From the NCBI GenBank assembly GCA_020152595.1, contig JAIGNY010000456.1, forward strand, positions 904,501 to 968,500: a stretch of DNA of 64,000 bases, read 5' to 3'. Shown here one piece after another: positions 8,712-49,870 of the stretch; positions within the stretch are counted from its first letter, which is position 1, and every line of letters starts with the position of its first letter. Origin of the DNA: Chiridota heheva (lineage: Eukaryota > Echinodermata > Holothuroidea > Apodida > Chiridotidae). The notes below the pieces were generated by a model. That model had not been told where the DNA came from and made no database searches. It saw nothing but the letters and a program-made list of their open reading frames with translations. A program made the position numbers and the translations under genes.

Positions 8712-8727
8712 ATGGCGTCTTCTGAAG
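8712..8727 (+). CDS. PRDM-like gene exon 1 (start codon)
   Basis: Sixteen coding bases, M-A-S-S-E plus one base, with donor GTAAGG. Chosen because it is the only ATG between PSMB6 and exon 2 that gives a phase-1 donor matching exon 2. Confidence is lower than for the other exons because the coding part is so short. Confidence 0.7.
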
Positions 8728-11700: not shown

Positions 11701-14700
11701 TGTGATATTGCTTGCACACTTAATGTTAACCTCTGCTTGCTTTTGTTTGCTGTTAAAGGAGACATAAAGTCTGATATAATCCTTATTTCATATGATAGAG
11801 GATTAAAATCTAAACCAATTACCAAAAAACAGCAAGTCAAAATCTCATTCCTATCTCAAGTTATCTTATCTTTAAAGTCAACACATGGAGGCTGCCATTT
11901 TGCTCAATTCTGTATCGAAATCTTGTGAATGATGACATTATTTCTCCAACATAAACCAAGGAATGTAATGTATTTCTTTATAACTTTATATTATGTTTTT
12001 ATTGCAAAATTATTTGTTACAAAATTTTAATAGCATGTTTTGACATTTTCATGTGTACACAAAAATGCTTTTGACCCTTGCAAAAAGGAAAACAATTTTG
12101 CATGAGCTAGAAAACTTGAGATAAATTATAAAGAAATACAAAGCATTTCAACATCCTGCTTGGCTAATGACATCATAATTTGCATGTTTTGAAATCAAAA
12201 TGACAGCTCCCATGGTACTATTTAGTAGTGGCATTAAAGTTTTAATAATTAAAAAAAATGTGTTAGATTTCTTAGGGAGTTTTGAAACTTGGTGAGAAGA
12301 TTTGTTATTTTTAATTCTATCATATGAAATAAGGATTATGTTAGACTTTATTTCTCATATAACAAAACCAAAATACTCATTTAAAGCAACTTACTTGCCA
12401 TATTGATGATCGGGAATACAAATTGTAACTATTTGTTCGGTTCTGCCATCTTTGCCTCGTACCGGCACATATAAAACATTCATACAGTAGGCCTACCTGC
12501 AGCGAACTAGCTAATTTTGTATTACTGTTCACTTGAAAAAGATTTGTTTGTTAACCCTCATGCATATTCAAAATGTACTTTCTTATTAAACAAAAATCAT
12601 GTGACTAGCTCAACCAGATTGACAAGATTGTAGATAGACAGACTGTAATTGTGGGGAGAATTGCAATATTGATATTAGAGGGCAAAGTGCGGGACATGGG
12701 ACCATCCTTTTTCCCACAAAGTAGGAAGACAGTTTTTTCACATTCAAATGTTTTTTTCTTTAAATTCTGACAATTCCCTTGTGTCCCCCAGGAATTACTG
12801 CCCTGTTAAGAGGGGAAGATTATGCCTATCCAATTTATATCCTCAAACAAAAAATATATAGAACTTCATATTTTGGAATTTTGTAGCTTTAAATCTGGGT
12901 CTTAATATCCAAAAAGCATTTCTAGACAACAAAAGAAAGAGAGAATTGGTCAGCTTGATTTGTCAACAAAATTTGATTTGCAAATTTAGCTGCAGCATAC
13001 AAAATTGCATTATTGAAATGATTCCCTCCCAAAAAATTACCTTGATTCCCCCTTCCCCCCCCACTCCCTCCCTCCAAATTACCTTGATTCCCCAAATAAC
13101 CTTTAATTCCACCCATAATTACTTATCTTGATTCCCTCTCCCTCATATCTAGAACAAGATTCCTTGATCACATGTTCTCTTTTCTATTTCTTTGTGGATT
13201 TCAGATGCTGAAGCTCATGTGAAGGTCCTTGCAAAGCATGCACTTTCCCAGGGCCATCGCTATGGACCTTTCAAAGGACGACTTATCACGCTCTCGGACT
13301 GGGACGAGGAAATTCAAATGGGAGCAATCAAGGTAGAAAAAATGCTGATGAATTCGGGTTTTTATATGTGAAAAGAGTTCAGTGGCATAGCCATCATCAC
13401 AATTATAGGAGCTCGCAATCTCAGGTAGTGTGGGTGGGAAGCAGTATAGGGGCCAGGATTTTGGTCATGGGGAGGGGGGGGAAAGAGAGGAGCAATTTTG
13501 TCTCAGTTTGTCTCCTATAAATAGGTCAAAATATGTCACTTTACAAAAATTTCTGGGGTCAAGTGAGGGGGGGCAAAGTGACCCATAGTGCTGCCACTGG
13601 TGGGAAGCAAAGATGCCAGGATCATATCCAGGACATTTCTCGGAGGAGTGGGGTAGGGGGTGGCACAAGCATTTTCATAGAGGGTACTTGGGCAGATTCT
13701 GCATATGCTCTTATATATATATTTCATTTGTTTTTACAAATCGCCTTCCTCACCTCCCCTTTAGAGGCAATGAAGATACTTTTGCAAGGGGAATGAACCC
13801 CTTGTGCCCCTGCCTTTACCCCGTGCTTGCTATAAGGCTGACTAGTAGTGATAAACATTTGTTAGATATGCATTTGGGAATTTAGGTGGGGGTAATTATA
13901 ATTGAAAAATGGGCCATTGCTCTACTGTCCCCATTCCTTTACTTCTTTTGCCAAGATTTGTTAATACATTAAGCTCTGTATTGTCCTTATTCCTTATTCA
14001 GGTGCTACTGATGAGGAAAATGTTGTCGGATACCGCTTTGAGAGCAATGACTTCACAATTCCAATGTGGCTGCGGTTCATCAAGCCTGCCACAAAAATTG
14101 AAGACCAGACCATCACCCTAGTTCAGCTGGGTTACAAATATTTCTTTGAGGTACCTCTCTTAACTTATTTAAGAATATAGCATCTATGCCCTTAGTAGAG
14201 TTTAGTCTGAGGGAAAGGGGGCATCTATGCCCTTAGTAGGGTTTAGTCTGAGGGAAAGGGGGCCATTACTTTTTATTGGAGGTTTTCACCAGTGTTGTAA
14301 GTCTCGAGACCTGGTCTCTGTCTCAAGACCATATTGAGACCTATCGAAACCCCATCTCATTTTTTTTTTTTTTTTTTTTTATCTTGGTCTCGGATAAAAG
14401 GTCTCAAGAACTCACAAATTTAGGGGAAAAATTAAATGCACTATTTTCAGCTGCAAGACACTCTAAAAGTCTGTTGATGGGTATGTTGCTGGTTATGAGT
14501 TGGGGAATGGGAATGATATCTTTGTAATAGTATACTGCACCTCAGCAGTAGCTTGAAAATGATTACAATTAAGAAATCATATCTCACTATTACTTGAGAT
14601 TTGATAAAAGCAATGGTTTTATTACTGTATAACTTGCTTTCAAGTGAAGAAAACTCATTTTTGCTTAGTTTCTTTTTTGGAAATTATGCATTTAATATAA

Positions 14701-17700
14701 GATCCACTGTTTACATTATTCTAAAGATAAGAAATTAAGAAATGATTTTGAAATGTTTTCAACTCCTGATATAAAATTGACATATGCCATACTGTCCAAA
14801 TATATCAAGCTTTTTGTTTACCCTACAATCACCGACAAAATTATTTGGCACTTTTTCTTCTCCCTACTTTACCTCTTTAATGTTGGTAAAAAGTTGAGAA
14901 TAAAGTGAGCCTCTTCATTTTTAAAGAGGTAATCATGCCAACATTGAAGGGAGGGAGAAAGCTGCCAAGTATTTTGTCGCTGATTGTTTGAGTTTCAAAT
15001 AGAAAAACATAGAATATCAAGAGGTGTAAGTGATGGTTATATGTGTTTTTATTTATTTGGTTATTTATGGGATCATGCGGGTTGAAGATATGCAATATGA
15101 AGATATTTTGTTCAGTCTGATAAGGAACAAAAAGCATACAATATCTTATAGGCTGGTTGGGGCAAAGGTAGGTGAGGGAGGGGAATAGTAGAGCAGATTC
15201 CTTCTTTGAATGAAACCTTGTGTTTTGTCGATGAATTTCCAACTTTTTCATACTGTAGGTGACTAAGGATATCGTGGTGGGAACGGAGCATTTCATTTAT
15301 GGACGCAAGAATGAAACACCTCCATCAGAAGTTGCCGCAGATGGTACTCCCATTTACAAACGAAGAGGGCGCCCAAAGAAAAAGAAGCTGACACCCGAAG
15401 AGCAGGCAGCCAAAGGATGCAGAAGAAGCGCAGAAGAAAACGGAACAGGAGTTGGTGAGTTTTTCAAATTTTCATTTGGAATATTGCACCTTGTGTTACA
15501 TTCAGAGGCATAGGAAGCGAGGGCGTGAACTGTACTCCCCTCCCCCTGCCCCCGAGCAGATTCCATCTTCCTGATTACATGCTTTCTGCCCGGATTGGGA
15601 GGTAAAATTTGAAAATTATTAACATAAAATTGAAAAATGCGGTAAAATTATTTGATATTTTGTTACAATTTCCCGAAAACTGGCCAAAATTTCCGAAAAA
15701 TTGGCAAAAAGTTCTCAAAATTGGCCAAAATTTACCGATAATTGGCTGAATTTTCCCGAAAACTGGCCACAAATTCCCAAAACTGGCTAAAAATTTATCG
15801 AAAATGAAGGAAATGTTCAGAATATGAAGGAATTATCCCAGAAATTGAAGGGGATTTCCTGATTAGCAGCAACTTTATGGAAATTTGCAATTTTTCCACT
15901 TGTCACTGGAATTTTTTTATTTTTTTTTTATTCCCATGAGAGGTAACCCTCTTATGCCCCTGGTTACATTGTCATAGCAAAATCCCACCTCCAGTCTATG
16001 AGTCTTTCCACCAAATTTGAATATAAAAAAAACCTGTGTATGACCATTGCTTGTAACAATTCTAATCATAGTCTGAACTAAAGGAAAGAAATTTGAAATA
16101 ATAAAATATAAATTTTCTTTGTGCATGTACTGAACAAAGGTGCATTTTGAAGAATGATTAACTGTTGAAAGGTTTGGGTAGGCAGAGGGTGAATTCTATA
16201 AAAAAAAATCATCAAGGGGGGTCTGATTCAGCACTGATGAATCTAGGAAAGTCCATAGTCATAAAAATATAAATTGTACTGTACAAAGGTGTGTTTGGAC
16301 GGATGATTAAAGGAATATTCCCATGAATTTTCCTTTTCATATGTGTAATAGAGGACTATGAAAGAAACAATCTTAGGAGTTATTGCATTTCAAAGATTTT
16401 CTGAGTGTATTGGAAAGTGACCTCACAGTGTACAGTGTGATGTCATAAAGGCAGATCCAAGACAATTTTTGTGTATTTCTTTGAAATTAAATTGCCTCTT
16501 CCTAAATTACTGGAAGCAGTTTTTGTTTATTTATTGAGATGGTGTATAACATACACTTTATAAGAACATGCTTTGCCCATCTGCTCATGAACCTTACACT
16601 CTAGTTAAAAGAAAATCATGTCTTGTTTTATAGAAATACACAAGAATTAACCTGACAGCTTTTTCAATTAATCACCTCATAAATTTGCCTAGCAACAAAA
16701 TCTGCGTCACCAAGTGGGGAAAACATCCTATGCGTTACTGGTACAGTACAGCTAGGTAGCGGCGCTCGCTCATGTAGTCAATGCAACTTACTGTACAAAA
16801 CAAATTTCTGCACACACAGACTGAATGACGGCAAAATGGTGAACAAAGATTGCACTTACGAGCCCACTGCAGGCTTGTAGATCTGATTGCTGTTACCCAG
16901 AACAGTAAGCAAATTAAATTTTGTTTATTCCATTTGCTAAAAACTCTAAAGATCCAGAGAAGTGCCATAAATGGATCAAAGCCTCACGAACATCTAAATG
17001 TCAATGCATTGGTAATACATGATACTGTGGATTTGAGGTTTGTTTAGGTAACGCGTTGCTATGGTGGGTGTGGCTTATTTCGTAACTCAGAGACGTTAAT
17101 TGTTTTGGGTCTGCATTGATGACATTACATTTTTACTGTAAGGTCACTTTTCAACAAACTCGCACAATCTTTGAAATGCAATAACTCTAAAACGGGAAAA
17201 GATATCAACATGATTTTTACACCACATTGTATCTTTCCTAGTCCTTTATCATATATAGGAAAATGAAAATTCCCGTGAATATTCCTTTAACTGTCGAAAA
17301 GTTGAGGTAGGGTGAATTCTAAAAAGAAATCATCAAGGGGCTCTAATTTAGCAGTGATTGATCTAGGGGGAGGTACATGATCAAAATGTCCATAGTGAAA
17401 TTTGTTATCATTTACCAGAAAATATTGAAAAGCTAAACAAAATGAAAATCAATATTTGCATGGGAAATGCATGTTTTTACACCTCTCTATGCCTTCCAAG
17501 GGAAATTTTTGAGGTACAGTAGCCTTCATTTTAGGCCCACAGGAATCCCCTGATTTTCGTAAAATTTAACAAGGTAGGACTGATTAAGCAGTGATGAATC
17601 TAAGGAAAGGGAAAAAAATGTTCAATCTTTTACTAGAAAAGATTGAGAAGCAAAAAGAAAAGCAAAAATAATGATAAATTACCCCCTCCATACCCCCTGG

Positions 17701-35700: not shown

Positions 35701-38700
35701 GTATCTTTAAGAAACATTATCTTGATCATGCCTCACCTCTGCTCCTCAGCTAGATAAAGCAGCCAAGCTTATCTTTATAAGAAACGTCATTGTCTTGATC
35801 ATGCCTTACCTCTGCTCCTCAGCTGGATAAAGCAGCCAAGCTTATCTTTATAAGAAACGTCATTGTCTTGATCATGCCTTACCTCTGCTCCTCAGCTGGA
35901 TAAAGCAGCCAAGCTTATCTTTATAAGAAACGTCATTGTCTTGATCATGCCTTACCTCTGCTCCTCAGCTGGATAAAGCAGCCAAGCTTATCTTTAAGAA
36001 ACGTCGTTGTGATCATGCCTCACCTCTGCTCCTCAGCTGGATAAAGCAGCCAAGCTTATCTTTAAGAAACATTGTCTTGATCATGCCTCACCTCTGCTCC
36101 TCAGCTGCTTGTCAACATATTGCATTAGCTTCCTGTGTCTCAACCAGTTGATTTCAAAATTTGTCTTCATGTCTATAAATCCCTCAGTCATCAGTCACCA
36201 TCATAAATTTCTGACAGTCTGCAACTTTAGGTTCCATCGTGGGCCCTTCGCTTTCTCTTCAGAGAACTTTCTGGTGGAGCATCGCATCAACACTAAAGCT
36301 GGTTCGCGTGCATTTTCTGCTGCCGCTTCCCATGTATGGAACTCAATGCCTTCAAATATTCGCCACGCAAGTTCACTTGGACAATTTAAAAAACTGCTCA
36401 AAACACATATGATAAAGCGTAACTTTTGTTTTGTTTTTGTCTTTATTATTATGTTGATCTGGACTGTGTTGCAACATTCTGGGCGCTTTGTAACTCCTGG
36501 ATGAAGGCGCCTCATGTAAATATCATCATGTATGTATGTATGTAGATACAAAAAGGTACAAAACCAATTCGTATCATTTTGTCTCTCCTTTACACAGCAG
36601 GCAGAGAAAAACTTCAGTGCCGCTTTTGCACCGCCAGCTTCAGTCGTCGCAGTTCTCGATCGTACCACGAGCGTCGTCATCGAAATGATGCACCGTATGT
36701 TTGCCCCAAGCCAGGATGTAACAAAAGTTTTGTGGCTGTTATTGATTTCAAGCGGCATCTGATATATCATACAGGTATGGTCTTGTTTCGGAGAGTATAG
36801 CATGTGTTACCTTTTTTATGGCTAATCTTTTTAAAAGTATATAAACAGAGATTTGTACCTGGATGAAGCAGCATTAAATTCTGAGCAGAACATGAGTCTT
36901 TAAATGATCATCAGAGCTGGAAAAAATCTACAGTTCCGGCAATTAAAACCGTGGGAATTTGCAGGAAGTAAAATTTATTTTAAAAGTGTTTTTTTTTTTT
37001 CTTAGCGAATTCTTGAGGAAACAACATTAGGCCTATGTGGTAAATAAGTGCTCTAAAAACAACCCCATATAATTGTGTGATGAAAAGTACATAAAATTGC
37101 AATAGAGGTAAGTGTTTAAAGATGTAATCACTACATTAATGTTATTTTTGTCACCATTTATCATAAGAAGATTTTCGACACCTTTATTTAGAATTGTGGG
37201 AAATTTGATAATTAATTCCAACTCCCATGGTCACGATCCACGTATATATTTTTTAAGCTATGACAAATCAAAGTTTGTCAAATGTTTCAGTGTGTGCAAA
37301 AGTGATGATATATGAACAGGAATATAGCTAAAATTATTGATGAAATCTCTTTCCAAATTTCTAGGTTATTGTGTTCTACGACTGAATCTGGTCCACGGTT
37401 ATAATAATATCCAATTTCCTCTTAACTTTAAGCAACTTCTTCCATTCAAAATGTTTGGGGAAGAACCAGAAAACAATAAATTTGCATGAGCAATTTTCTA
37501 GTTGTCCCATTCTGAGGTCAGGCATGATTATTAAACTCCGCCTTTATTATTGTGGACATTTGCATAAGGTTGCTACAGTATATGAACTGATTAGCCTTTT
37601 TTTATTTAGTATGCTCAGTCAGTGAGTGTGACAGGATGTGACTGCATATGGACATAGAGAGGGATGCCATGTGGGACATGGATGGCGGCCATGCAGGACA
37701 TATGATATATATATACCATGTAGTATACACCAAGGGCTATATCAGGCATAATTATTTGACTCCGCCATTTTTCTTATTCAACAAGTCATTTGCATATAAG
37801 TTATTATATGAACAGACACTTTCATACATAGTATGCTCAATCAGGGACTATGATAGGTAGGATGAGACTTCTTATGGAGCCTATGGGATGTCATGTGGGA
37901 CATGGGGTGGGATGCCATGTGGGACATTGGATGGGATGCCATGTGGGTCATGGGGTGGGATCCCATGTGGAACAGGGTGGAATGCCATGTAGGATATCTG
38001 GTGGAATGCCATGCGGGACATGGGATGGTATGGGATGTCATTTAGGACATGGGGTGAGATGCCATGTGGATCATGAGGTGGGATGCCATGAGTAACACAG
38101 AGTGTGACATAGGTTGGGATGCCATGTGTGACATAGTGTAGGAGGCTATGTGGGACATAGTGTAGGAGGCCAAGGGGACATGGGATGTGATGCCATGTGT
38201 GACATAAAGTAAGATGTCATTGGGACATAGGGGGATACCATGTGGAACATATGGTGGGATCTAATGTGGGACATAAGGTGGGATGCCATGTGGGACATCA
38301 GGTGGGAAGCCACTGATGCGGGACATACAGTGGGATGCCATGGGAGACATTGGGAGAGATGCCATGTGGGACACAGGGAGGGATGCCATGTGGGACATAG
38401 GGAGGGATGTTATGTGGTACATATGGTTGAATTAATGTAGGACATACATGTAGGATGGGAGCCATGTGGGACATAGGGTGGAATGCCATGTGGGTCATAG
38501 GGTTGGATGCCATGTGGGACATATGGTGGAATGCCATGTGGGACATATGGTGGAATGCCATGTGAGACATAGTGTATGGTGGAATGCCATGTGGGAGATA
38601 TGGTGGAATGTCATGTGGGACAAGGCATGGGATGTCATGTTGGACATGGATGGGATGTCATTTGGCACATGGGATGGGATCCATGTGGGACATGGGATGC

Positions 38701-41700
38701 CATGTGGGTCATAGGATGGGATGCCATGTGGGACATATGGTGGAATGCCACGTGGGACAAGGAATAGGATGAGATGCCATGTTGGAGATATGGTGGAATG
38801 CCATGTGGGACATGGAGTGACATGTGGGACATGGGATGCCATGTAGGACTTAGTGTGAGATGCCATTTTTATAATTAACCAGGTCATATGATATGGGTGT
38901 CAATTTGCATGGGCATGCCAACCATGGCAGTATTTAGTTCTAGTTAAACTACTTTAAAACAATTAACTACTATTATTTTATTCTTATTGGGTTGCTAGAT
39001 TGTTCCAAGTACCAAATCAGTTTTGAAAAAGTCAAATTATGTTAAAAAAAAATAGAATATATATAATCATTGGCAGCGTTATTAGCTAATTTTGACTGGA
39101 GAAGGGGGTGGGCAAAATATAAGAAGACTGCCTCAAATTAGCATCCCATTTGAAAAAAATAAAACTTGCCTCTCTGTAAAATATTTAATAATTAAAATCA
39201 GTATTTTTACCGGCCTGGTACCAGATTTACCGACTAATCTCAAATTTTATAGACAAGCCTTTCAAATTTTGGGGGTATGACACCCCCACACCACCCCATG
39301 GTATTTATGTCCCTGGTAATCAATTAAAAAAAAATCCAAATTTAAAAGGGATCATTCTCTGGTGGGTCTAGGGATTTTCTGGGAGGGGTAAAATATGTAG
39401 TGAAAAGCAAAAAAAAAATGTTATTGTGATTTCAGGGGAAAGCATGCAAAGTATCACATAGTGGGAACGTCATCAGAAAATTATTTTTTACTTTCTTGTT
39501 ATTCTCCATCAATGCCTCTGAGAAAAGTCAGAATTAAGCCAAATGAGATATTTTAAGCTAGACTTAAACTCTTATGAAAAAGAATTATCAAATTCAATAC
39601 CAAAAAAGGTAAATAACTTTTTTTTGTGGCTAAACAAGTCTAGAAAAAGTGTGAAAATGTTATTCAAGTACGCCATTATAGCCCAGTCCTCATGTCATTG
39701 TCATTGTCACAGGTGCCAAGCTGTACAGATGCCGCTATTGTAGCAACTGCTTTACGAGGAGTGATTACCTGAAGGGTCATGAAAGAAGACATCATCTGAG
39801 AGGGGAGCAAATTACTGTAGCGCCACCTATAGAGGAAACGGTTACAATCAAGGTATGACAGAGAGAGGTTGGTTCAGGCCCACCGAGAGGAATTGCAGGG
39901 CCGGGGGAAAACTGAAAGCCTGGCCTTTATACAATTTGTACGGTCCCTTATAACCTGGGCCCCTTAGGATCCTGGGCCTGGGGAACTGCCCTCTTTCAAC
40001 CCCCATGTTGGCAGCACAGGGTGGCTGAGAGGAAGTGGGGCCCGGGGAAACTGAAAATCTGAGCCCCTATATAATTTGTATAGTCCCTTATGACCTGGGC
40101 CCATTTGGACCCCAGGCCCACGCCGTCGGGCACTACTCCCATTTCACTCCCCATGTTGGCGGCACTGGGTTGGTTTGATGAGACAGAAAGCTGTTTTTTT
40201 CCCCCAATGTCACTGTTAATATTTCTTCAACTTAGCGCAGAAAACTTTTGAAAAGTCAATAAAACTTTAACATGACTTGCACCTGTGTGTCAACATTTAC
40301 TTCCAACATTAAAATGTCATTGGAAGAGGTGAAGAAAAAAGGTTAATTACTTTTGTCCGGGATTGTTCGAGTTTGTATGAAGATTAGTGAAGAGTATGTA
40401 TGAAGAAAGGGATTTGCATCTGCACCTTTTAGTATTCACTTCCAACCAGTAGCACAACTACACTTCCAACCAGTAGCGCAAATAGAGTCCTGGGGTCCCA
40501 TGGAGTTTTTGGTGTTCAGGCCCCATAAGAAACACATCGCAATATCATTGCTTGGGAGCTCGGAATCTTGATTTTTGCTCGCAGCCTGTGGGGTTTATCC
40601 ATCCTTCCCACCCTATTGTTGTGCCACTGTTTCCAACATTAAAGTGGAGTGGGTAAAGAAAAGAGTTAAATACTTTTAGTTTGTTACAGATCAAAAGCTG
40701 TTCAGTGAGATGTATTTTCAATTAAAATGTACATCTACGTCAGTAAACAAACAATGGAGCTTATTGTGAAGAGCGGGGCCTAAATACAGGGGGTGTCACA
40801 CCAGTACAATACAATACAGTATGGAACAAAATAGCAGCCTCCATTTGTAGACTTCAAAATTTTTGGAATTTTGATTTGTTTTTAAGTTATTTATTTGTAA
40901 ATCATATGAAATAAGGATTGTATCAGACTTTTATGTCCCCCTTTAAAAATAATTCTTCTGGAAATGATGTTAAACAAATAAATCCAACTTTGAAGAGGGG
41001 GTAGGGAGATACAATTTTGGAGAAAAAAATATTAAAGAAACATAACACTTACATATGTACTTCTCATAACGCTGAACTTTCCAACAGTTTTGTCCAAGAT
41101 TGTAGATCAGAGGAAGAGGCAGAGGATTCAGTTGGATTTTCAAAGCATGTTTTCATCAGTGAGTAATTAACACACAGGAAGTGCATAGCACAGTGGTCAG
41201 GGCGTAGGTCTCATGCTTAAAAGGTTATAATAATGAGAAGCTTATAGAGCTCCTTCCAAGGCCCAAACATCTCAAAGCGCTTTACAAAGAAGTCAACTGT
41301 CCAAACAAATCAAGACTGTTCTCAAGTCCTCAGGACTGCTTAACGGGTGTTGCCCTGGTGCTGCCAGTAATGGCACAACATGTTATAAACCACATTATCA
41401 CCCTGCTGAAAAGGTACCAGGATCGATTCTCAGCCAGAGCTGCTGTGCTGTGTCCTTGAGCAAGACTCTTGCCCCAGTTGCTCCAGTTCACTCAGCTGTG
41501 AAATAAGTACCAGTATCGGCTGGGGAGTTAAACTGTGATGAACTGGTATCCCATCCAGGGGTAGTCAAGCACTCTCATCCACCTAGCACCATGGAATGGT
41601 ATAAGCACCAGCTCAAGGCTCAATGGGCTTTATCTTATTAATACTCTGGTGGCTTTGAGTGCAATAAACAATTTATAGTCTTGATTTATTCATCATGATG

Positions 41701-44700
41701 GTCATTGTTGTAAAACTAAAAACTGCTAAAAAACTTTATATTTTTGTTCCCATTTGTTCATTTTATATTGACATAATTGACCTCTTGGTAACTATTTGAC
41801 CTTTGCTGTAGACAAATCTCATCAATCAATTTTTTTATTCAGAAAATGAAGATTTGTCAACCAGTTCACTTCTCTTTAAACATTTGCCTCATGTATAGGT
41901 TCCTTGGCCAATGGAAAAAGCTGTAAAGATCCAGGGACAAAATGTAGTGGTCATTATAGAGCCAGACCCAACGTTAGCAGAGGGTGAATTGACTGCTGAA
42001 GCACTGGCAGCCCTTGAAGGCATATCTCAAACCACTAGCACTTCAGGGGATGATGTGGAGGTAATGTTATATGTCGAAAGGGTGGAAGGGGGGGGGGGGG
42101 AAAGTCTCATGAAAGGCACTTTCAATTTGGAAGGGCACACATCAGTGGAAATTACCAATTCGATATTCCTTGATTGTTCTGTATTCTATGGACACAAATT
42201 TTAAAGGAAGAAAAGGGTTATTTGCCAATTTGGACAATTATTGTGCAAAATTTTACCCAAAATAGGAACAATTCTGCATAATTATTATGAAATGGGTATG
42301 TCGATGCATAAAAAGGTATCTACATCGCAATTCATAATTCAGGAGGGACACTTTTTGGCTCCTTTCCCTCCTAGATAGGCTTCTTGCCCCCATGAGGTGA
42401 AGGGAAGGGGAAATCAACCATGTTGCCCTCGTGCTGCAGTCAACCTTGGTAATAAATATATAGCTTTATAATGCATTTGTTGATCAAGAGCCAACTGTAA
42501 CCCTGACATATATTTTAGAAATGTACAGAGGACAAACAACAAACCATTTACATCTATGAATTCTTCACAGCATATGCAAATTCAATTGTCCGAGTCGCAA
42601 CATCAAGTAGTGACCACTGTTGGACATGAGCAGGACACGGATATTGTACAGCAGGCAGCGCAACAGGTCAGACATTATGTGTACAAGTCCTATAAACTTT
42701 TTGAAACCCAAGTTAAATTGCACAAACTTTCTTCAGTACTTTAACCAATCAACTGCCAGGAAATTTCCATTTGTTACCCAGCCAATCAGCTGTAGTCACT
42801 AAAAAGTTGTAAGAAACAATGTGTGCGAATATTACCTTTAGGTATATTGCACATAAGACCAGAGTTTGAAAGCTTTTTTTTTTTTACGCTTGGTCCCATG
42901 CCGTGCGTAAATTGTGAAAACGGGCAAGAATTCCTCAGCATTTGATTGGTCGATAAGATTCCCACAGTATACCATTGGTCCATTATTTGATTTAAAGGAT
43001 TAGTTCAGGGGTCAAAATGGCAAAGAAAGCATTCAAAAATCCTATTCTGTTAAGAAGATATTCAAGTTTAAAGTTTGGTATCATTTCCGTAGAAACGACT
43101 GAAATCAGACTAATTGTGATGTCACAGCCTTAGATTCCTAAGTCTTTATGTTTTTTTTAAAGGAAGTTTATTTAATTCTTTCTCTATTTAAATTATTTTT
43201 TCTCAAAACTTTTTCAGGTGGTACATTATAAATACCCTTCCTAGATTCAGTTTTACTACTTTTTTGACATATCCCATGGTTTTTAAGCCACAAAATCGCA
43301 GGACAAAATATGATAGAATACATCAAGACTTTGAGGAATCTGAGGCTATGACATCACAAGTAGTCTGATTTCAGTCGTTTCTACACAAATGATACCAAAC
43401 TTTAAATTGAAATATCTCCATAACGGAAGTTTCATTTCATATCAGATTAACATGCTTGACCACAGAACTAATCCTTCAACGGAATAAGATTTTTGAATGC
43501 TTTCTTTACCATTTTGTTTCTTTTGAAGTCCTGTTTTCATATCAGATAAACATGCTTGACCACTAAACTAATCCTTTAAGTCTTCTGAAAGTTTGCCAAT
43601 TTAGATTTGGAAAGGCTTATTAGAATCAGATACCAGCATCCTGTAGTACTTAGCTTCCAACTTCATTCAAACTCTGGATTATATGCACTAGAGGCCATTT
43701 TTTTTTTAATTATCAGATTACCTCAGTTGATGTGAATGGTGCAATTGGTAGAAACATTTGGTGAATGAAGAAGCAGATGCGACTATTTATCACATTGGAG
43801 AGGAGGGGGAGGGTTTGTGTGTGGGGGTGGTTGAGATCTTATTTAATAGCCATGCCTGTCATTAAAATGTATTTTTGAACTTGGTAAAAATAGCAATAAA
43901 TTTACTTGTGCCTATTGGAAATTGTTCATTGTTTTGATGGATTAAGATGTCCCTCTTGTCAGGGGAATCACCAAAGATGTTTGGTAGTGAGGAACAACAG
44001 TTATATGACGGAATAAGTGAGTATGTTGGGAAAGGTGAGGGGGGGAGGGGGGCAAGAAACTATATGTGCTAATGTAATTGAAAGTCAATATGTCATTGGT
44101 GGTTTGCTGGTGGCATGATGAATATTAGGAGAAAGCACCACTGCCCCTGATTGTTACAAAGTAAACTGTACAATTTATTTTGTTGTTTTGACAGGCAATA
44201 CAACCAGTGGACACCACCGCCACGCAGCTGCTACAACTTGCAGCAGAACAAGCATCTGGTTCTACAGCAGGAAACGTCATCCAGCATGGCGAGGATGGTG
44301 AAATGGTGGTAACCTCGCTTGCCTCGGGTAACCTTAATTCGAGCCAGATCTTGATGCAGGCTGCCACTCAACGGCTGCTGCAGGAAGGTTCGCAGCTATC
44401 CATGTCAAACGCTGATGTATCTGAAATCAGCATTGATGCTGCGACCAGTGAGCAGGCTGCCCTCGTGCTGCAGCAGTTGGCAGGGGAAAATGCCCAGGTA
44501 AGGCATAACATTCAATGACCACCGTAGATATATTTTGGGTACCTAATTTTGTACACTTTGAATCGAATTAAGAGTCTGTAGAGGTTTGCAGTAAGCTGTG
44601 GTGTGTTTAAAGTTTGGCAAGTTTCACTAACTGATCAAAGTTTGGCAATTTTCTCTTACGGAACGAATGTTTGGAGAGCTTTAAATGATTAACCCATAGA

Positions 44701-46513
44701 TCAAGCATGCATATGATAAACAGCAAAAAAAGGATCAAAAATGTGAAGAAGGTATTAACACTATATGCAACGTGATCTCCCTAACAGATTAAGCAGAAAA
44801 CTAGTATAAATGAGGGTAGAAAATTTTGTATCAGACGTGAAAGTGACACATTTGTCAAAAATCTTTGTGAATTTTGTTGAAATTTATTGTGCCATAAGCC
44901 ACTGCTCACAATATCAGATTATCAAAACACGATTCATTAGATTGACTGTAGTTACTAAAAAAATTGGATAAATTATGTAGTTCATATATTTTCCATCAAG
45001 ATTTTTTAAGTATTTTGTATATAAATCAGTTATTTATTTTAACTAACATTCTGGCTATTCCCACAGATAGTACATCTGTGCGAGTAAGCAATAATAAATG
45101 CTTACTTGCTTGGAAAATTTTGGACAAATCGTAACAGTCTACCGCAAATTCTAAGAAGGATGTCGGAAGGAACTCGGGGCAAGGGGCATAGTAATTGAGA
45201 GGCATTTTCATATCCAAAATTGGGCACTTTTGTCAGTTTTCTGAAAAGTGGGGGTACATGCCTCCTGGCCCCGGTTCTTACACATATGGTTTGAGCATAG
45301 GCAGGATTTGGGGGAGCAAGGTGGGACTTGTCCTACCCCCACATTTTTTTTCCAAATGTATACTTTTGTATGGGGATTTTTTTGTATCTTAACATGATTT
45401 TGCCACCCATCCCCCCACCTTTAACTTTTCCCCCAACTTTCGGTAGGTAAATCCCGACTATTGGTTTGAGATTGGGGAAACAGGACCACTGACGGCAATT
45501 GACCGTTGGGCGAATAGGTAATAGGCCTACTTTTAAAAATTAGGCCTTGAAAGCTATTAGGGGCCATTCCTACTCCCAACACAGCCCCCTGTATCGATGC
45601 CCCTGTTATATTACATGCTTTAATTGTGTCAAATAAATACTTAATGTATGTTACATCTTCTATGAATACGATGAAAATGATTATCACTGATTCCCAATTG
45701 CATTTATTCCCACATTTACCTACCAGTATCTCTTTGAAAAAGCAATCCGTGCAGGCAAGCTAATAGTAGGGGAGTGATTACTTGCACTATATCTGTGCGA
45801 GTAAACAATTTGAATTGCTTACTCACAAGAATCAATGGTAAATGGTCAATCAGTAGGTCACCTGTATAGTTGTAACACTAATGACCACACAATTGTTTCC
45901 CTTCCAGGTTGTTTTGCAACCCTCCGAAGACGGAAGTGGCACCATGCATGCCACTCTGCACAACGAGAATGGTGAAACAAGTATCGTGATGGTCAGTTTA
46001 ACATCCGAGCAGCTTGCTGGAGCGGAAGGTGTCACACTCGCTGAAGGGCTTGAGGCAGGGGGTCATGGAGAGACCTTGATGATCACATCAGAGAATGTCA
46101 CCGTCAATGAGGATGGTACCCTGGTGGTGACCTCAAATGGGCATCAGCTCCCAATTGACCAAAATGGCCACATTATTGTAACAACAGCTAGTAGTGAAGA
46201 CGGGGGTGGTGTAGTCCTGGGTGGGACCACTACGAGCATTGCCATTACGGGGGAAGAGCAGATGAACATGGTGGATCAAACTGAGGGAGTTGGCATCGGG
46301 GACCACAAAGGAGGGAGCATCACCATCACGCAAGATGGTAGAACCGAGATAATGATGGTACAGCAAGATGAGCATGCTGTTTGTATAACAGAACAGCAGG
46401 AGACGGACATGACCGTCGAGGATCAGGACAGAAATAATGTCTCAATGAATGAAGCGGAAGGTGGGACATCGTTGAGTTTGGATACCAATGATGATGTCAT
46501 GAGCAGTCAGTGA
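8712..46513 (+). CDS. PRDM-like protein: PR/SET domain, AT-hooks, C2HC and C2H2 zinc fingers, Q-rich tail
   Basis: Sixteen exons, listed separately, give about 1,077 residues. Order: PR domain about 13-115 (YGPFKG, then W-L-R-F-I-K-P-A, then F-F-E..D-I-V-V-G-T-E..Y-G-R-K); AT-hook RRGRPKK near 136; C2HC finger 183-203; AT-hooks near 278 and 303 in a very basic segment; C2H2 fingers in exons 7-12 (about 337-665), several with wide C-x4-C spacing; then an acidic, Gln-rich tail (690-1077) without fingers, probably an activation or protein-interaction region. A nuclear DNA-binding regulator is inferred; PRDM proteins methylate histones or recruit enzymes that do. The frame needs one base added near 13333 and one removed near 15412, both homopolymers. 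I cannot place it with a named PRDM. It shares a promoter with PSMB6. Confidence 0.85.
9577..9729. repeat. Facing G-tract and C-tract (potential long hairpin or quadruplex)
   Basis: A G-rich run (9577-9604) and a C-rich run (9702-9729) of about equal length face each other across about 100 bp in PRDM-like intron 1. Transcribed RNA could pair them; the G strand could also form a quadruplex. Confidence 0.7.
9844..10025 (+). pseudogene. LINE 3' coding end fragment (CR1-like)
   Basis: Reads R-G-H-K-Y-K-I-F-K-I-H-P-R-L-N-I-R-K-Y-S, then V-N-I-W-N-S-L-P, the conserved C-terminal tail that follows reverse transcriptase in many LINEs. A short duplication (AGTTTACC twice) and a frame change follow. 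Lies in PRDM-like intron 1. Confidence 0.75.
10365..10525 (-). repeat. Possible tRNA-derived SINE fragment
   Basis: On the minus strand GGTGTATTGGTTAGTGCTCA followed by CAGGTTCCTATCCC resembles split A and B boxes of RNA polymerase III. The cloverleaf is too degenerate for a tRNA. Confidence 0.4.
10526..11287. other. PRDM-like intron 1, nothing recognised
   Basis: AT-rich intronic DNA without repeats, ORFs or motifs that I can support. Confidence 0.5.
11288..11510. repeat. Imperfect 113-bp tandem duplication
   Basis: Two copies, each starting GGAATTTGAAAG and ending near AAAAGGGCACTTT..CAACAAAAGGGG, in PRDM-like intron 1. Confidence 0.7.
11753..12365. mobile_element. Palindromic MITE, family with ATCCTTATTTCATATGAT
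   Basis: Begins TTAAAGGAGACATAAAGTCT, and ATCCTTATTTCATATGATAG (11780s) reappears inverted near 12320-12340 before AAAGTC-like sequence. The left junction is TTAA; the right end has drifted. Related copies at 27995-28550 and 40770-40946. Confidence 0.75.
12366..13204. other. PRDM-like intron 1, 3' part
   Basis: Unremarkable except for a pyrimidine-rich block (13040-13140) with repeated ACCTTGATTCCCC about 60-100 bp before the exon 2 acceptor. Confidence 0.5.
13205..13332 (+). CDS. PRDM-like gene exon 2 (N-terminal PR domain)
   Basis: Acceptor TTTCAG at 13204. Encodes A-E-A-H-V-K.. through Y-G-P-F-K-G and ends M-G-A-I-K. The obvious donor AAG|GTAGAA leaves phase 0, whereas exon 3 needs phase 1. 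A lost G in the AAGG run, or a weak donor at 13358, would reconcile this. Confidence 0.8.
13333..14001. other. PRDM-like intron 2
   Basis: GGGG-rich in its centre (13440-13660). No repeat family recognised; ORFs here lack motifs. Confidence 0.5.
14002..14150 (+). CDS. PRDM-like gene exon 3 (central PR domain)
   Basis: Acceptor TTATTCAG. Frame A-T-D-E-E-N-V-V-G-Y-R-F-E.. includes W-L-R-F-I-K-P-A, the PR-domain core, and ends Y-K-Y-F-F-E at donor GTACCT. An alternative acceptor GATGAG at 14015 would restore phase 0 with exon 2 at the cost of five codons. Confidence 0.82.
14180..14261. repeat. 41-bp tandem duplication
   Basis: Two near-identical copies of a 41-bp unit that begins GCATCTATGCCCTTAGTAG, one difference seen. 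In PRDM-like intron 3, followed by a poly-T tract (14361-14380). Confidence 0.85.
14826..14989. mobile_element. Fold-back element, about 55-bp inverted arms
   Basis: The left arm begins CAATCACCGACAAAAT and ends AATGTTGG; the right arm carries CCAACATTGAAGGGAGGGAG and ends ATTTTGTCGCTGATTG, so the arms pair with small bulges. A nested pair ACCTCTTTAA/TTAAAGAGGT lies inside. A short MITE or hairpin-forming element in intron 3. Confidence 0.75.
15259..15454 (+). CDS. PRDM-like gene exon 4 (end of PR domain, first AT-hook; frameshifted)
   Basis: Acceptor TACTGTAG, donor GTGAGT. Encodes V-T-K-D-I-V-V-G-T-E.. then R-R-G-R-P-K-K-K-K. At CCAAAGGAT (15412-15414) there is one base too many. With a two-A run the frame continues A-K-D-A-E-E-A-Q-K-K-T-E-Q-E-L and exits in phase 0, as exon 5 requires. 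The exon is 196 nt instead of 195. Confidence 0.82.
15508..15800 (-). repeat. Dispersed repeat family A, copy 1 (with internal GAAAACTGGCC tandem)
   Basis: Reverse-oriented relative of 28600-28940 and 56140-56345: shared parts are GCTTCCTATGCC, AAAGCATGTAA-like and AATTTTCAATTTTATGTTAA-like blocks. The distal half holds several copies of a 20-23-bp TTTCCCGAAAACTGGCCAAA motif. In intron 4. Confidence 0.7.
16129..16290. repeat. Segmental duplicate, copy without MITE (empty site)
   Basis: Its parts (GTACTGAACAAAGGTG, GAATGATTAACTG, AGGGTGAATTCT, AATCATCAAGG) recur in the same order at 16279-16310 plus 17287-17400, where a MITE interrupts them at TTAA. The TTAA here (16158-16161) is intact. Confidence 0.85.
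16307..17290. mobile_element. TTAA-specific MITE, 984 bp including both TTAAs (AGGAATATTC family)
   Basis: Flanked by TTAA on both sides (16307-16310, 17287-17290) with inverted ends AGGAATATTCCCATGAATTT / reverse complement of AAATTCCCGTGAATATTCCT. TTAA targeting is the hallmark of piggyBac-type elements. The neighbouring duplicate shows the uninterrupted site. The interior carries a segment (about 16735-17060) shared with 29060-29345 and 59276-59560, suggesting nested insertion or a composite element. Confidence 0.9.
17291..17772. other. PRDM-like intron 4, 3' part
   Basis: Begins with the right half of the segmental duplicate (to about 17400). A third, partial AGCAGTGATGAATCTA copy occurs near 17590. 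Otherwise nothing recognised. Confidence 0.6.
17773..18032 (+). CDS. PRDM-like gene exon 5 (C2HC finger, acidic stretch)
   Basis: Acceptor AATAACAG, donor GTATGA. Encodes T-K-E-K-E-E-L.., a finger C-V-I-C..H-R-Q-M-C (C-x2-C-x12-H-x3-C, so the last ligand is Cys), then a run rich in Glu and Asp (about residues 218-249). Confidence 0.88.
18237..18299. repeat. Three copies of a 20-bp tandem repeat
   Basis: GTCAATGGTCAATGAATGGG repeated three times, the last diverging, just after exon 5. Confidence 0.9.
18405..18575 (+). repeat. tRNA-derived SINE head
   Basis: TTGGTAGAGCAACGCTTTCC and GTCATGGGTTCAATCGC resemble the D-arm (A box) and T-arm (B box) of a tRNA. The 3' part ends in ACAAATAAAAG. No acceptor stem pairs, so this is not a tRNA gene. 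Confidence 0.6.
18626..18827 (+). CDS. PRDM-like gene exon 6 (two AT-hooks)
   Basis: Acceptor ATTCACAG, donor GTGAGT. Encodes R-P-R-G-R-P-R-K-D-G-R-P and L-G-R-P-R-K-R-P, two AT-hook cores separated by a highly basic W-K-R-K-K-R-R-K. A more upstream AG (18597) would give an immediate stop, which fixes the acceptor. Confidence 0.9.
19015..19640 (+). pseudogene. Non-LTR retrotransposon 3' fragment, copy 1
   Basis: One frame reads C-W-Q-T-S-W-D.. then H-I-T-R-L-R-I-G-H-T-H-L-T and S-H-L-L, the L-R-x-G-H-T motif after the RNase H region of I/Jockey-type LINEs. Downstream frames are broken and the usual zinc-knuckle cysteines are missing. It ends at TGCTGTTAAGC. In intron 6. Confidence 0.8.
19641..20264. 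other. PRDM-like intron 6 segment with a diverged direct repeat
   Basis: GTGATGTCATG..TTTGCATCATACTTG occurs at about 19697-19805 and again at about 19980-20075. Otherwise unrecognised. Confidence 0.5.
20265..20515 (-). repeat. tRNA-derived SINE, family S1
   Basis: On the minus strand GGTGCATTGGCTCAGCGGTT (A-box part) and GGGTTTAATTCCCG (B-box part), followed by GAGTAAGACACTTTACTTGC and CTGGGGAGTTAA. The same series appears at 57475-57745 and, interrupted, at 41160-41660. Confidence 0.8.
20516..21239. other. PRDM-like intron 6, nothing recognised
   Basis: AT-rich. Contains CGGTGCCGGTACCATG and, at 21860, a related GGTACCG motif across the LINE copy 2, hinting at an older element around it; not resolved. 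Confidence 0.4.
21240..21640 (+). pseudogene. Non-LTR retrotransposon 3' fragment, copy 2 (5' truncated)
   Basis: About 88-90% similar by eye to 19260-19625, starting at ATTGCCATTGCACCCTC and ending TGCTGTTAAGCCCTCATC with an (AAAC)n tail, the kind of 3' end expected of target-primed insertion. Same family as 19015-19640, 5' truncated. Confidence 0.82.
22241..22571 (+). CDS. PRDM-like gene exon 7 (C2H2 fingers 1-3)
   Basis: Acceptor CCCTTACAG, donor GTATGT. Two regular fingers (F-E-C-A-Q-C..H-M-E-Q-H and F-V-C-S-Q-C..H-M-E-E-K-H), then F-R-C-D-M-C..H-R-R-R-A-N-Q-E. The third has no second histidine within the normal 3-5 residues; the following exon does not supply one. Confidence 0.95.
22776..23308. 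mobile_element. TTAA-specific MITE, 533 bp (AGGAATATT family)
   Basis: TTAA on both sides, ends AGGAATATTTCCATGGAATT and reverse complement of ATTCCATGGGAATATTCCT. The whole element is largely palindromic. In intron 7. Confidence 0.88.
23458..23572 (+). repeat. 57-58-bp tandem duplication of the exon 8 splice acceptor
   Basis: Two copies of TTATCCTCAATAGCAACTAA..TTTTGTTTCAG. The duplication includes the polypyrimidine tract, the AG and the first bases of exon 8 (CACCTTATCC). Splicing to the first AG (23515) would hit TAG after five codons. Confidence 0.93.
23573..23731 (+). CDS. PRDM-like gene exon 8 (finger 4 and first half of finger 5)
   Basis: Acceptor TTTCAG, the second of two duplicated copies; donor GTACTG. 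Finger 4 is I-K-C-K-F-C..H-T-V-K-K-H. Finger 5 begins C-T-E-N-N-C (C-x4-C) and is split by the intron. Confidence 0.92.
23813..23895. repeat. GTCAAAAGTGGGG short tandem array
   Basis: Five or so loose copies of GGGGTCAAAAGTGG in intron 8. Confidence 0.7.
24125..24270. repeat. Imperfect 70-80-bp duplication
   Basis: GGGTTAT(T/C)TGG.GGACAGTTAAG occurs twice with TGGATTAGGG after each. In intron 8. Confidence 0.6.
24650..24800 (+). repeat. Dispersed repeat family B, copy 1
   Basis: Shares GTATACATGCAATGCAAATT, ATGGTTGCCC and CGTATGATTTGTCAAA with 59130-59270 in the same order. Short ORFs here are incidental. Confidence 0.75.
25300..25681. mobile_element. MITE with perfect 16-bp inverted repeats
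   Basis: TATAGACCTTTTCAAA at the left and TTTGAAAAGGTCTATA at the right, probably with a TA target. Interior motifs (ATGGACCAA, CTTATCGACCAAT) recur in 42690-42990 and 50460-50815. The right end lies about 95 bp before exon 9. Confidence 0.85.
25777..25918 (+). CDS. PRDM-like gene exon 9 (rest of finger 5, finger 6)
   Basis: Acceptor CTTTCAG, donor GTAAGT. Completes finger 5 with H-L-Q-S-F-H and gives finger 6, C-P-V-E-N-C..H-Y-E-L-R-H (C-x4-C). Confidence 0.92.
26208..26530. mobile_element. Partial MITE of the GGATTAGTTCAG family with internal duplication
   Basis: TTTAAAGGAGTAGTTCAGGA followed by a 120-bp block (AGAAACAAAATGGTGAAGAA..) that is present twice, then the same stretch seen at 42992-43140. 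The right half is missing. In intron 9. Confidence 0.75.
26531..27740. other. PRDM-like intron 9, nothing recognised
   Basis: AT-rich DNA. I see no repeat family, ORF or RNA motif that I can support. Confidence 0.5.
27741..27907 (+). CDS. PRDM-like gene exon 10 (fingers 7-8)
   Basis: Acceptor ATGTTAG, donor GTAAGT. F-T-C-E-I-C..H-L-K-T-H and L-C-D-L-C..H-K-M-D-A-H, both regular C2H2 fingers. Confidence 0.94.
27995..28550. mobile_element. Palindromic MITE, ATCCTTATTTCATATGAT family, copy 2
   Basis: Ends CTAAAGGAGGCATTA and the inverse TATGCCTCCTTT, with TTATTTCATATGATAGAATT inverted near 28510-28530. In intron 10, close to the exon 10 donor. Confidence 0.8.
28600..28940 (+). repeat. Dispersed repeat family A, copy 2
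   Basis: Same block order as 56140-56345 and, inverted, 15508-15800: TTTCAGGAAATTTTTGGC, TTTACCACATTTTTCAATTT, AATAATTT-CAATTT, AAAGCATGTAACAGG, CTTCCTATGCC. Confidence 0.75.
29060..29345 (-). repeat. Dispersed repeat family C, copy 2
   Basis: Inverted relative of 16735-17060 and 59276-59560: shared pieces are AAACAAACCTCAAATCCACA, CCAATGCATTGGCATTTAGA, GGCACTTCTCCGGATCTTTA and ACCATCTTG. Confidence 0.8.
29626..29960 (+). repeat. tRNA-derived SINE, family S2
   Basis: GGTAGCTCAGTTGGTAGAGC is a near-perfect A box with D-arm, and AAGTTCAAGCCTCAGTC holds a B box. A long non-tRNA body follows to about 29960. The anticodon and acceptor stems do not fold, so I call a SINE rather than a tRNA gene. 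Confidence 0.75.
30343..36106. repeat. 5.8-kb minisatellite, 68-bp unit, about 80-85 copies
   Basis: Consensus unit in parts: AGCTGGATAAAGCAGCCAAG, CTTATCTTTAAGAAACATTG, TCTTGATCATTCCTCACCTC, TGCTCCTC. Two main variants (TTGTCTTGATCATTCC and CGTTGTGATCATGCC) are interspersed and cluster. Most units are 68 bp; patches at about 31890-32300, 34560-34640 and 34960-35230 hold truncated, scrambled units. Each intact unit has CAGCTG directly followed by GATAA, and an opposite TTATCT. The array occupies most of the 8.7-kb intron 10 of the PRDM-like gene and abuts a LINE at its right end. No coding potential. Confidence 0.96.
36107..36545 (+). pseudogene. LINE 3' end (CR1/L2-like), with (ATGT)n tail
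   Basis: One frame has L-P-V-S-Q-P-V-D-F-K-I-C-L-H-V-Y-K-S-L; after a frame change another has G-S-R-A-F-S-A-A-A-S-H-V-W-N-S-M-P-S and F-K-K-L-L-K-T-H, the standard C-terminal tail after reverse transcriptase in such LINEs. It ends ATCATCATGTATGTATGTATG, a microsatellite-like LINE 3' terminus. It stops about 50 bp before PRDM-like exon 11. Confidence 0.85.
36598..36774 (+). CDS. PRDM-like gene exon 11 (fingers 9-10), NAGNAG acceptor
   Basis: Acceptor ACACAG|CAG|GC is a tandem NAG. Use of the first gives T-G-R-E-K before the finger (a TGEK-like linker); use of the second (exon from 36601) drops one codon. Fingers L-Q-C-R-F-C..H-E-R-R-H and Y-V-C-P-K-P-G-C..H-L-I-Y-H. Donor GTATGG. Confidence 0.93.
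37040..37230. repeat. Dispersed repeat family D, copy 1
   Basis: Shares ACACCTTTATTTAGAA, TGGGAAATTT and AATTCCAACTCC, in order, with 58560-58785. In intron 11. Confidence 0.75.
37512..38868. repeat. Degenerate 22-24-bp minisatellite and a flanking direct repeat
   Basis: Units built on GGGATGCCATGTGGGACATA, interrupted at 37690-37870. About 45 copies, much more diverged than the other arrays. A 125-bp direct repeat (from CATGATTATTAAACTCCGCC at 37524 and CATAATTATTTGACTCCGCC at 37746) brackets the first units. Overlapping ORFs on both strands are by-products. In intron 11. Confidence 0.88.
38869..39712. other. PRDM-like intron 11, 3' part
   Basis: AT-rich, nothing recognised. Confidence 0.5.
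39713..39852 (+). CDS. PRDM-like gene exon 12 (finger 11, last)
   Basis: Acceptor GTCACAG, donor GTATGA. Y-R-C-R-Y-C..H-E-R-R-H, followed by a linker that begins the tail. Confidence 0.93.
39887..40175. repeat. 142-bp tandem duplication
   Basis: Two GC-richer copies sharing ATACAATTTGTA/ATATAATTTGTA, GTCCCTTATRACCTGGGCC and CCCCATGTTGGC, just after exon 12. Confidence 0.85.
40176..40769. other. PRDM-like intron 12, nothing recognised
   Basis: CTTCCAACCAGTAGC is present twice near 40440-40480; otherwise plain intronic DNA. Confidence 0.5.
40770..40946. mobile_element. Truncated MITE, ATCCTTATTTCATATGAT family, copy 3
   Basis: Only the right end: ATCATATGAAATAAGGATTG then ATGTCCCCCTTTAA with a terminal TTAA. 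Confidence 0.65.
41160..41660 (+). repeat. tRNA-derived SINE, family S1, interrupted
   Basis: GCATAGCACAGTGGTCAGGGC (A-box part) is separated from GGATCGATTCTC (B-box part) by about 180 bp of unrelated insert (41225-41400) containing AAGCGCTTTACAAAG. The SINE tail TTGAGCAAGACTCTTGCCCC..CTGGGGAGTTAAAC follows. An example of one short element inserted in another. Confidence 0.75.
41899..42060 (+). CDS. PRDM-like gene exon 13 (tail)
   Basis: Phase 0 at both ends, acceptor ATGTATAG, donor GTAATG. V-V-V-I-I-E-P-D-P-T-L-A-E-G.. is acidic and Ala/Leu-rich; no known domain. Confidence 0.85.
42571..42666 (+). CDS. PRDM-like gene exon 14 (Gln-rich)
   Basis: 96 nt, phase 0 at both ends, acceptor TTCACAG, donor GTCAGA. 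H-M-Q-I-Q-L-S.. with Q-Q-A-A-Q-Q at the end. Confidence 0.82.
42690..42990. mobile_element. Relic of the 25300-25681 MITE family
   Basis: GATTGGTCGATAAGATTCCC and CATTGGTCCATTAT match interior parts of that element in inverse order, and CCAATCAGCTG with AAAAGTTGTAAG match 50460-50815. Terminal repeats are lost. Confidence 0.6.
42992..43579. mobile_element. TTAA-flanked palindromic MITE, 588 bp (GGATTAGTTCAG family)
   Basis: TTAA on both sides. Ends AGGATTAGTTCAGGGGTCAA and reverse complement of TTGACCACTAAACTAATCCT. Long inverted arms meet at CTGAAATCAGACTA/TAGTCTGATTTCAG. The right arm has an extra internal copy of its end. Relatives at 26208-26530, 49656-49722 and 55440-55706. In intron 14. 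Confidence 0.87.
44195..44497 (+). CDS. PRDM-like gene exon 15 (Gln/Ala-rich)
   Basis: 101 codons, phase 0 at both ends, acceptor TTGACAG, donor GTAAGG. Contains T-Q-L-L-Q-L-A-A-E-Q and V-L-Q-Q-L-A-G-E-N; probably amphipathic and Q-rich. Confidence 0.88.
44498..45907. other. PRDM-like intron 15
   Basis: ATCTGTGCGAGTAA occurs at 45074 and 45791, each followed by a small hairpin (GTAAGCA/TGCTTAC and GAGTAAACAATT/AATTGCTTACTC). These may be remnants of one element's ends. Otherwise nothing recognised. Confidence 0.5.
45908..46513 (+). CDS. PRDM-like gene exon 16 (terminal, stop at 46511-46513)
   Basis: Acceptor CCCTTCCAG. 201 codons and TGA. Rich in Gly, Thr, Val and acidic residues, with repeated G-E-T and hydrophobic beta-strand-like stretches such as T-S-I-V-M-V-S-L. 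No domain recognised; probably disordered or an activation region. Confidence 0.9.
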   Translation, partial: VVLQPSEDGSGTMHATLHNENGETSIVMVSLTSEQLAGAEGVTLAEGLEAGGHGETLMITSENVTVNEDGTLVVTSNGHQLPIDQNGHIIVTTASSEDGGGVVLGGTTTSIAITGEEQMNMVDQTEGVGIGDHKGGSITITQDGRTEIMMVQQDEHAVCITEQQETDMTVEDQDRNNVSMNEAEGGTSLSLDTNDDVMSSQ

Positions 46514-47017
46514 ATTGACTGTTGAAAAATTAACCAACCGAACATAAAGGCATTTATGAGAATATCAAGCATACAAAAACAGTGGCGCAAGATCTTTCGT
46601 AGGGACCGACAGTGAAGAAAACACTGGCAGAAACATTTATGGCATATTGTTCCAATTAAGCTTAAGTTATTGATATCTGTCCTTAGTTCTTCAAGGGTTC
46701 TGACATGGTGACGTTGCTTCATGCAGCTATTTGTTGCTTGACGTTGCTTCATGCAACTATTTGTTCATTCGAAATATCATTAAAGATATTGCCTGCTACA
46801 TTGTGTTTGGTATTTAATAGCACAAATCACCTGGAAGAAGTTGAGTGTAAAAGTTTGCCTGATTATTTTGTTTTTTTTGGCAAGTTTGGACTGAATGAAC
46901 ACCAAATAGCTGTTAAGTTTTAAAGCAAATGACTAGAAATGATTTTTGTGTGACTGATAAAATGTTTGCCATTTAATCTACCTTTGTTTCATGTCCATAA
47001 TTCTCTTTCATAAAGTA
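46514..47017 (+). other. 3' UTR and flank of the PRDM-like gene
   Basis: Contains a 30-bp direct repeat GACGTTGCTTCATGCA..TATTTGTT (about 46711-46766). Bounded on the right by the 33-bp minisatellite. Confidence 0.6.
46779..46784 (+). terminator. Candidate poly(A) signal ATTAAA of the PRDM-like gene
   Basis: ATTAAA 265 bp after the stop codon, in DNA that ends before the 33-bp minisatellite. No AATAAA occurs between the stop and the array that I can see. Weak evidence. Confidence 0.35.
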
Positions 47018-49660: not shown

Positions 49661-49722
49661 TTCAAAAGAAAGAAAATAGTGCAGTGTTCAAAAATCTTAT
49701 TCCATCAAGGAGATATTCACAT
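49656..49722. mobile_element. Fragment of the GGATTAGTTCAG MITE family
   Basis: GGACTTCAAAAGAAAGAAAA.., TTCAAAAATCTTATTCC and AAGGAGATATTCA match the arm seen at 26340-26420. It forms the right border of the minisatellite. Confidence 0.7.
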
Positions 49723-49870
49723 GCACTGATTCATATATTTCTCTCCTTTCCATCTATTTCTCTTCTTTTCGTCATCATGTGATCTATTTCCTAGAAATCA
49801 CCAAAAGAAGCTAAAAGATTAGGCCTACAACTGGACTCAAGCTAGTAGTAGCAAATAAATACACATAGCA

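Follow-up and report, generated by a model that had tools for sequence, protein, structure and literature searches.

A probable diverged PRDM-type gene with AT-hooks and a C2H2 zinc-finger array in the holothuroid Chiridota heheva

Described PRDM proteins and the layout of the locus

PRDM proteins govern cell identity in animals. Within the family, PRDM15 has an isolated finger after its PR domain, followed by a basic AT-hook-like stretch and then the array, and PRDM16 has two separated finger groups. PRDM genes have been reported in no group other than animals (PMC2082429), and their number by lineage runs from 2 (sponge) to 19 (teleosts), as cited in PMC10451705. PMC7368010 describes PRDM10 (tristanin) as having a PR domain at its N-terminus, ten C2H2 fingers, and at its C-terminus a Q-rich transactivation tail found in none of the other members of the set of 17 PRDMs. 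Its finger array is described there as binding DNA, deletion mutants indicate that the array together with the PR part or the tail activates a reporter, and PRDM15 is grouped with PRDM10 in one phylogenetic subfamily. Table 3 of PMC10451705 lists a bivalve PRDM10 with 12 zinc fingers and 1481 residues and a bivalve PRDM15 with 20 fingers.

The window analysed here is the whole stretch of C. heheva DNA, 64 kb in length. On its + strand, between 8712 and 46513, 16 exons separated by GT..AG introns can be modelled, with splice sites graded by a simple splice score. In sequence they carry a PR domain, a C2HC finger, AT-hooks, eleven fingers in an array and a tail that is acidic and T/E/Q-rich. A single gene of 16 exons had been proposed by the sequence-only reading. 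Its layout stands, and exons 5-16 (2745 nt, 914 aa) form one open frame in which all phases are consistent and the only stop is the terminal one; the join between exons 1-4 (514 nt), which carry the PR domain and the first AT-hook, and exon 5 is off by one base. The features of the model are as follows.

8712..8727, + strand: exon 1, candidate first exon, ATG, MASSE, ending in phase 1 before gtaagg (donor 7.5, good)
13205..13357, + strand: exon 2, first part of the PR domain (GHRYGPFKG; PF21549); alternative end 13332
14002..14150, + strand: exon 3, middle of the PR domain (MWLRFIKPA); alternative start 14016
15259..15454, + strand: exon 4, end of the PR domain and AT-hook 1 (RRGRPKKK, 15361-15384); apparent frame change near the 3' end
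17773..18032, + strand: exon 5, isolated C2HC finger (17830-17892) and acidic stretch
18626..18827, + strand: exon 6, AT-hook 2 (RPRGRPRK, 18696-18719) and partial AT-hook 3 (GRPRK, 18777-18791)
22241..22571, + strand: exon 7, C2H2 fingers 1, 2 and degenerate 3
23573..23731, + strand: exon 8, complete finger 4 and N-terminal half of finger 5 (C-x4-C)
25777..25918, + strand: exon 9, C-terminal half of finger 5, and finger 6 (C-x4-C)
27741..27907, + strand: exon 10, fingers 7 and 8
36598..36774, + strand: exon 11, fingers 9 and 10 (10 being C-x4-C); alternative start 36601
39713..39852, + strand: exon 12, finger 11
41899..42060, + strand: exon 13, start of the acidic T/E/Q-rich tail
42571..42666, + strand: exon 14, Q-rich tail
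44195..44497, + strand: exon 15, Q/A-rich tail
45908..46513, + strand: exon 16, acidic tail and stop codon

The isolated C2HC finger at 17830-17892 is present as had been claimed, and the C2H2 array extends across exons 7-12, with a zf-C2H2 match in Pfam at an E-value of 3.2e-29. Eleven C2H2 fingers had been read in this array; ten of them are complete, while finger 3 (CDMCKKSFRSPIHLERHRRRANQ) is degenerate, its second His/Cys, the last His of the finger, being absent at the usual spacing. The C-x4-C spacing occurs in three of the eleven (nos. 5, 6 and 10), one fewer than the four that had been counted. A six-frame regular-expression scan of the window returns 11 contiguous C2H2/C2HC patterns, none of them on the - strand or outside 17830-39795; 20 first-order Markov resamplings average 0.85 and never exceed 3. 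One of these 11 patterns is false, since at 25743-25808 intron sequence runs into the second half of the real finger 5. This unspliced exon 9 finger, CQGCISFTDLSDERSLHLQSFH, looks intact but was rejected; the spliced finger 5, CTENNCELTFDSKDERSLHLQSFH, is preferred because its phases agree and because the half of finger 5 that exon 8 encodes would otherwise be left orphaned. The false finger may be one source of finger miscounts. In introns 10 and 11, the translations of 33230-36107 and 37642-38899 resemble tandem repeats.

With regard to the AT-hooks, a flanked AT-hook pattern matches at 15358 and 18696 (four overlapping matches in two places), compared with none in the resamplings; the last position of this pattern is too loose, yet K or R stands there in both places. 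The motif GRP[RK][RK] occurs three times in the window and never in the resamplings, and bare RGRP, with two occurrences, lies within chance (resampled mean 0.6, maximum 2). Three AT-hooks had been claimed, and two of the three sites have the RGRP core with basic flanks, whereas the third (18777-18791) reads LGRPRK and is partial. The tail, described earlier as Q-rich and acidic, is indeed acidic, with a net charge of -55 over 407 residues, but its composition of 10.6% T, 9.8% E and 9.8% Q makes it T/E/Q-rich rather than strongly Q-rich.

In layout the gene as modelled is closest to PRDM10 as described in PMC7368010, with ten complete and one degenerate C2H2 fingers plus one C2HC finger here, and a tail with just 9.8% Q. 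It differs from PRDM10 in its PR sequence, in its three C-x4-C fingers and in its AT-hooks, a term absent from the main text of PMC7368010. The combination of domains had been regarded as unrecognised; the order of PR domain, fingers and Q-rich tail has a parallel in PRDM10. PRDM15 can be likened to it by description only and differs in the 20 fingers given for the bivalve protein in Table 3 of PMC10451705, and PRDM16 differs in that the gene here has one array with an acidic tail. Among the literature matches listed, judged by title and the opening of the abstract in a search that covered a minority of journals, no paper reports a PRDM protein with AT-hooks; matches for lettered invertebrate Prdm groups are unrelated by title, and for PRDM across phyla none of the matches listed has the words 'prdm genes'.

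Reading frames and the probable linkage of PR and finger exons

The frame of the PR half is less regular than that of exons 5-16. Between exons 2 and 3 two pairs of sites are in frame, namely 13357/14002 (donor -4.3, TCGG|gttttt; acceptor 6.0) and 13332/14016 (donor 0.6; acceptor -5.8), but the best-scoring sites, 13332 and 14002, are mutually out of frame by one base. In exon 4, which starts in the PR frame, codon usage was followed in 11 windows, the reference table being compiled from the 915 codons of exons 5-16. Seven windows favour the PR frame, one (15394) shows it level with another frame, and in three it is beaten (narrowly at 15334, and at 15349 and 15409). Over the last 45 nt of the exon a second frame scores 8.0 bits against -2.8 bits for the PR frame; this second frame reaches donor 15454 in phase 0 and runs into exon 5 in phase 0 as one Lys/Glu-rich stretch. 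The assembled sequence would thus have a one-base discrepancy within exon 4; a second may lie between exons 2 and 3. Accordingly, exons 2-5 require either one or two such discrepancies or poor splice sites, and assembly indels would be the simplest cause, with real frameshifts as the alternative. Acceptor 17780, which would bring exons 4 and 5 into frame, was rejected: it scores -5.2 against 1.4 for 17773, and the codon usage of the final 45 nt of exon 4 favours the other frame.

The same frame break could be read as the boundary between two neighbouring genes, a short PR-domain gene made of exons 1-4 and a zinc-finger/AT-hook gene made of exons 5-16. We consider this unlikely, because exon 5 starts at an acceptor (17773, score 1.4) and has no Met codon among its first residues, exon 4 terminates at a fair donor (4.3), its last 45 nt in the second frame join exon 5 in phase 0, and AT-hooks are present on either side of the junction. 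It is even less probable that the locus is a pseudogene, a decaying copy of a PRDM gene. The frame change in exon 4, the lack of a good in-frame splice pair for exons 2 and 3 and the one degenerate finger would fit such decay, but 2.7 kb of coding sequence remain open over 12 exons with GT..AG borders, and codon bias lies in the true frame, although the three exons checked also belonged to the training set. In order and strand the C2H2 fingers fit a position C-terminal to the PR domain, apart from the one base at the exon 4/5 join, and a single transcript is likely to carry both the PR exons and the finger exons.

The PR domain and the finger array against solved structures

The PR domain is recognised by Pfam PF21549 with 44 bits for a rough join of the exons, and with 45.1 bits (13357/14002) and 50.4 bits (13332/14016) for the spliced variants, corresponding to E-values of 9.6e-12 or 2.2e-13 depending on the splice variant. 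All three joins exceed the cut-off of 27, which bears out the earlier claim of a PR domain in a PRDM-type protein.

A search of the PDB was made with a rough join of 123 residues that pre-dates the choice of splice sites and contains a few variant-dependent residues. By whole-sequence score PRDM16 comes first with 25.2 bits, followed by PRDM5 (21.3), PRDM12 (20.4), PRDM10 (18.9), PRDM1 (18.1) and MECOM (16.3); PRDM9, PRDM14, PRDM11, PRDM2 and one unrelated chain match more weakly, so that the PRDM matches range from 12 to 25 bits. The PRDM16 match (E 1.3e-4) covers 54 residues (query 65-118). Ranked on their best single stretch, the five printed alignments score 24.4 for PRDM16, 17.9 for PRDM10, 17.8 for PRDM12, 17.3 for PRDM5 and 12.4 for PRDM1, from which PRDM16 alone stands apart. 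Below PRDM16 the ranking varies with the measure. PRDM10, for example, is fourth by whole-sequence bits, second by best stretch within the five printed alignments and third by identity, with 12/45 identical residues compared with 15/53 in the common block for each of PRDM16 and PRDM5, and its PR sequence is not close to the one here. Over a block of 43-53 residues, read from the printed alignments with PRDM11 and PRDM14 left out, identity to nine PRDMs is between 9/43 and 15/53, and the nine share between 10/45 and 32/53 with one another, values that assign the domain to no particular PRDM. PRDM4, whose PR domain has been solved, is absent from the PDB matches at E-values up to 10, and none of the 15 matches within that limit is a chain named PRDM15, FOG1 or ZFPM.

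How distant these values are can be judged from scores among the solved domains themselves, which give only a rough guide because the query lengths differ. A 54-residue fragment of PRDM16 scores 66.4 bits with MECOM (PRDM3) and 52.2 with PRDM2, far above the 25.2 bits that make PRDM16 the best match to the domain here. A 93-residue fragment of PRDM10 scores 41 bits with PRDM4, 34.5 with PRDM1, 32.3 with PRDM9 and 29.3 with PRDM11, and, lower, 22.8 with PRDM5, 20.6 with PRDM12, 19.4 with PRDM14, 16.2 with PRDM2 and 15 with PRDM16. On this rough scale, the PR domain of the window appears to be about as distant from the solved PRDMs as far human paralogues are from each other. The sequence-only reading could match the protein to no named PRDM, and for the solved PR domains, at 12 to 25 bits, this is upheld; the comparison excludes PRDM6, 8, 13, 15 and 17 and the invertebrate PRDMs.

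With a rough join of the finger array as the query and E-values up to 1e-5, ZNF568 is the top PDB match (175 bits), PRDM9 reaches 122 bits and other arrays lie below, among the best 60 of 113 matches. Such matches are generic, and judged by them the array alone gives no guide to PRDM identity. In viral and prokaryotic collections, 1 and 10 stretches with the peptide pattern were found, and tblastn, run with the rough array join in one case and the spliced array in the other, confirmed none of them as a relative.

Low similarity is not common to every gene here. Downstream, on the - strand at about 56604-60188, lies UBE2J2 (ubiquitin-conjugating enzyme E2 J2) in at least four pieces. Three of its exons joined give 321 bits to the PDB entry 2f4w, which we take to be the human ubiquitin-conjugating enzyme E2 J2, and the last piece is presumably the membrane anchor. 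This neighbour is thus well kept, although one neighbour does not amount to a genome rate. The remainder of the window holds several repetitive stretches. The region 47014-49782 is open in several frames (one ORF has 719 codons) and looks like a tandem-repeat by-product rather than a gene, and a long TA-rich stretch resembling a microsatellite occupies 58706-59121. One interspersed repeat family is found at 26200-26660, 43000-43590 and 55440-55710, its longer matches being about 80-92% identical, and a second interspersed repeat at 16948, 29163 and 59455 with 0, 1 and 3 mismatches (up to 3 allowed); the latter has no exact match in the viral and prokaryotic collections. On the - strand at 2603-2962 there is a fragment that appears to resemble the end of a non-LTR reverse transcriptase. 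It is without a significant Pfam match, as are all four pieces of the window that were translated and searched besides the PR domain, and scans of the window with Rfam and for tRNA (ARAGORN with the bacterial code) found nothing.

Orthology, probable role and implications

Taken together, the locus is most likely to encode a diverged, perhaps lineage-restricted PRDM transcription factor, and we give a probability of roughly two in three to an animal gene encoding a diverged PRDM-type transcription regulator, whichever orthology applies. A narrower form, compatible with this explanation, would make the gene a rapidly evolving PRDM10 orthologue, or one of the sister gene PRDM15, equal in layout and role and with AT-hooks flanking the isolated first finger. 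We regard it as possible but doubtful. The order of parts and the type of tail are as given for PRDM10 in PMC7368010, the 12 fingers listed for a bivalve PRDM10 in PMC10451705 are also the total here once the C2HC finger and degenerate finger 3 are included, and PRDM10 is second to PRDM16 by single stretch among the five alignments printed. Its fourth place by whole-sequence score speaks against this, as do three further points: the identity of 12/45 is no higher than that of PRDM10 with PRDM5 or PRDM16 (12/45 each), the motif CNWMM, common to PRDM10 and PRDM4, is PMWLR here, and the strong conservation of UBE2J2 means that at least one adjoining gene is not fast. We refrain from assigning the gene to PRDM10, since none of the three measures makes PRDM10 the nearest to its PR sequence, the margins being small except to PRDM16. 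It is conceivable, though less likely than not, that the gene belongs to a PRDM orthology group with no vertebrate member, marked by a diverged PR domain, AT-hooks flanking an isolated C2HC finger, a mixed C-x2-C/C-x4-C array and an acidic T/E/Q-rich tail.

By analogy, the diverged PRDM factor encoded here probably works like PRDM10. Its finger array would read DNA sequence, and the predicted AT-hooks would add minor-groove contacts in AT-rich DNA. Activation or the recruitment of cofactors may fall to the tail, perhaps together with the PR domain, as the deletion mutants of PRDM10 suggest. If a PRDM-type protein with AT-hooks is truly encoded here, it would represent another route by which general contacts with AT-rich DNA are joined to sequence-reading fingers; if the gene is a diverged PRDM10, it would show that the PR domain is loosely kept in the PRDM10 group. 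In either case, the gene would be an addition to the known PRDM family.
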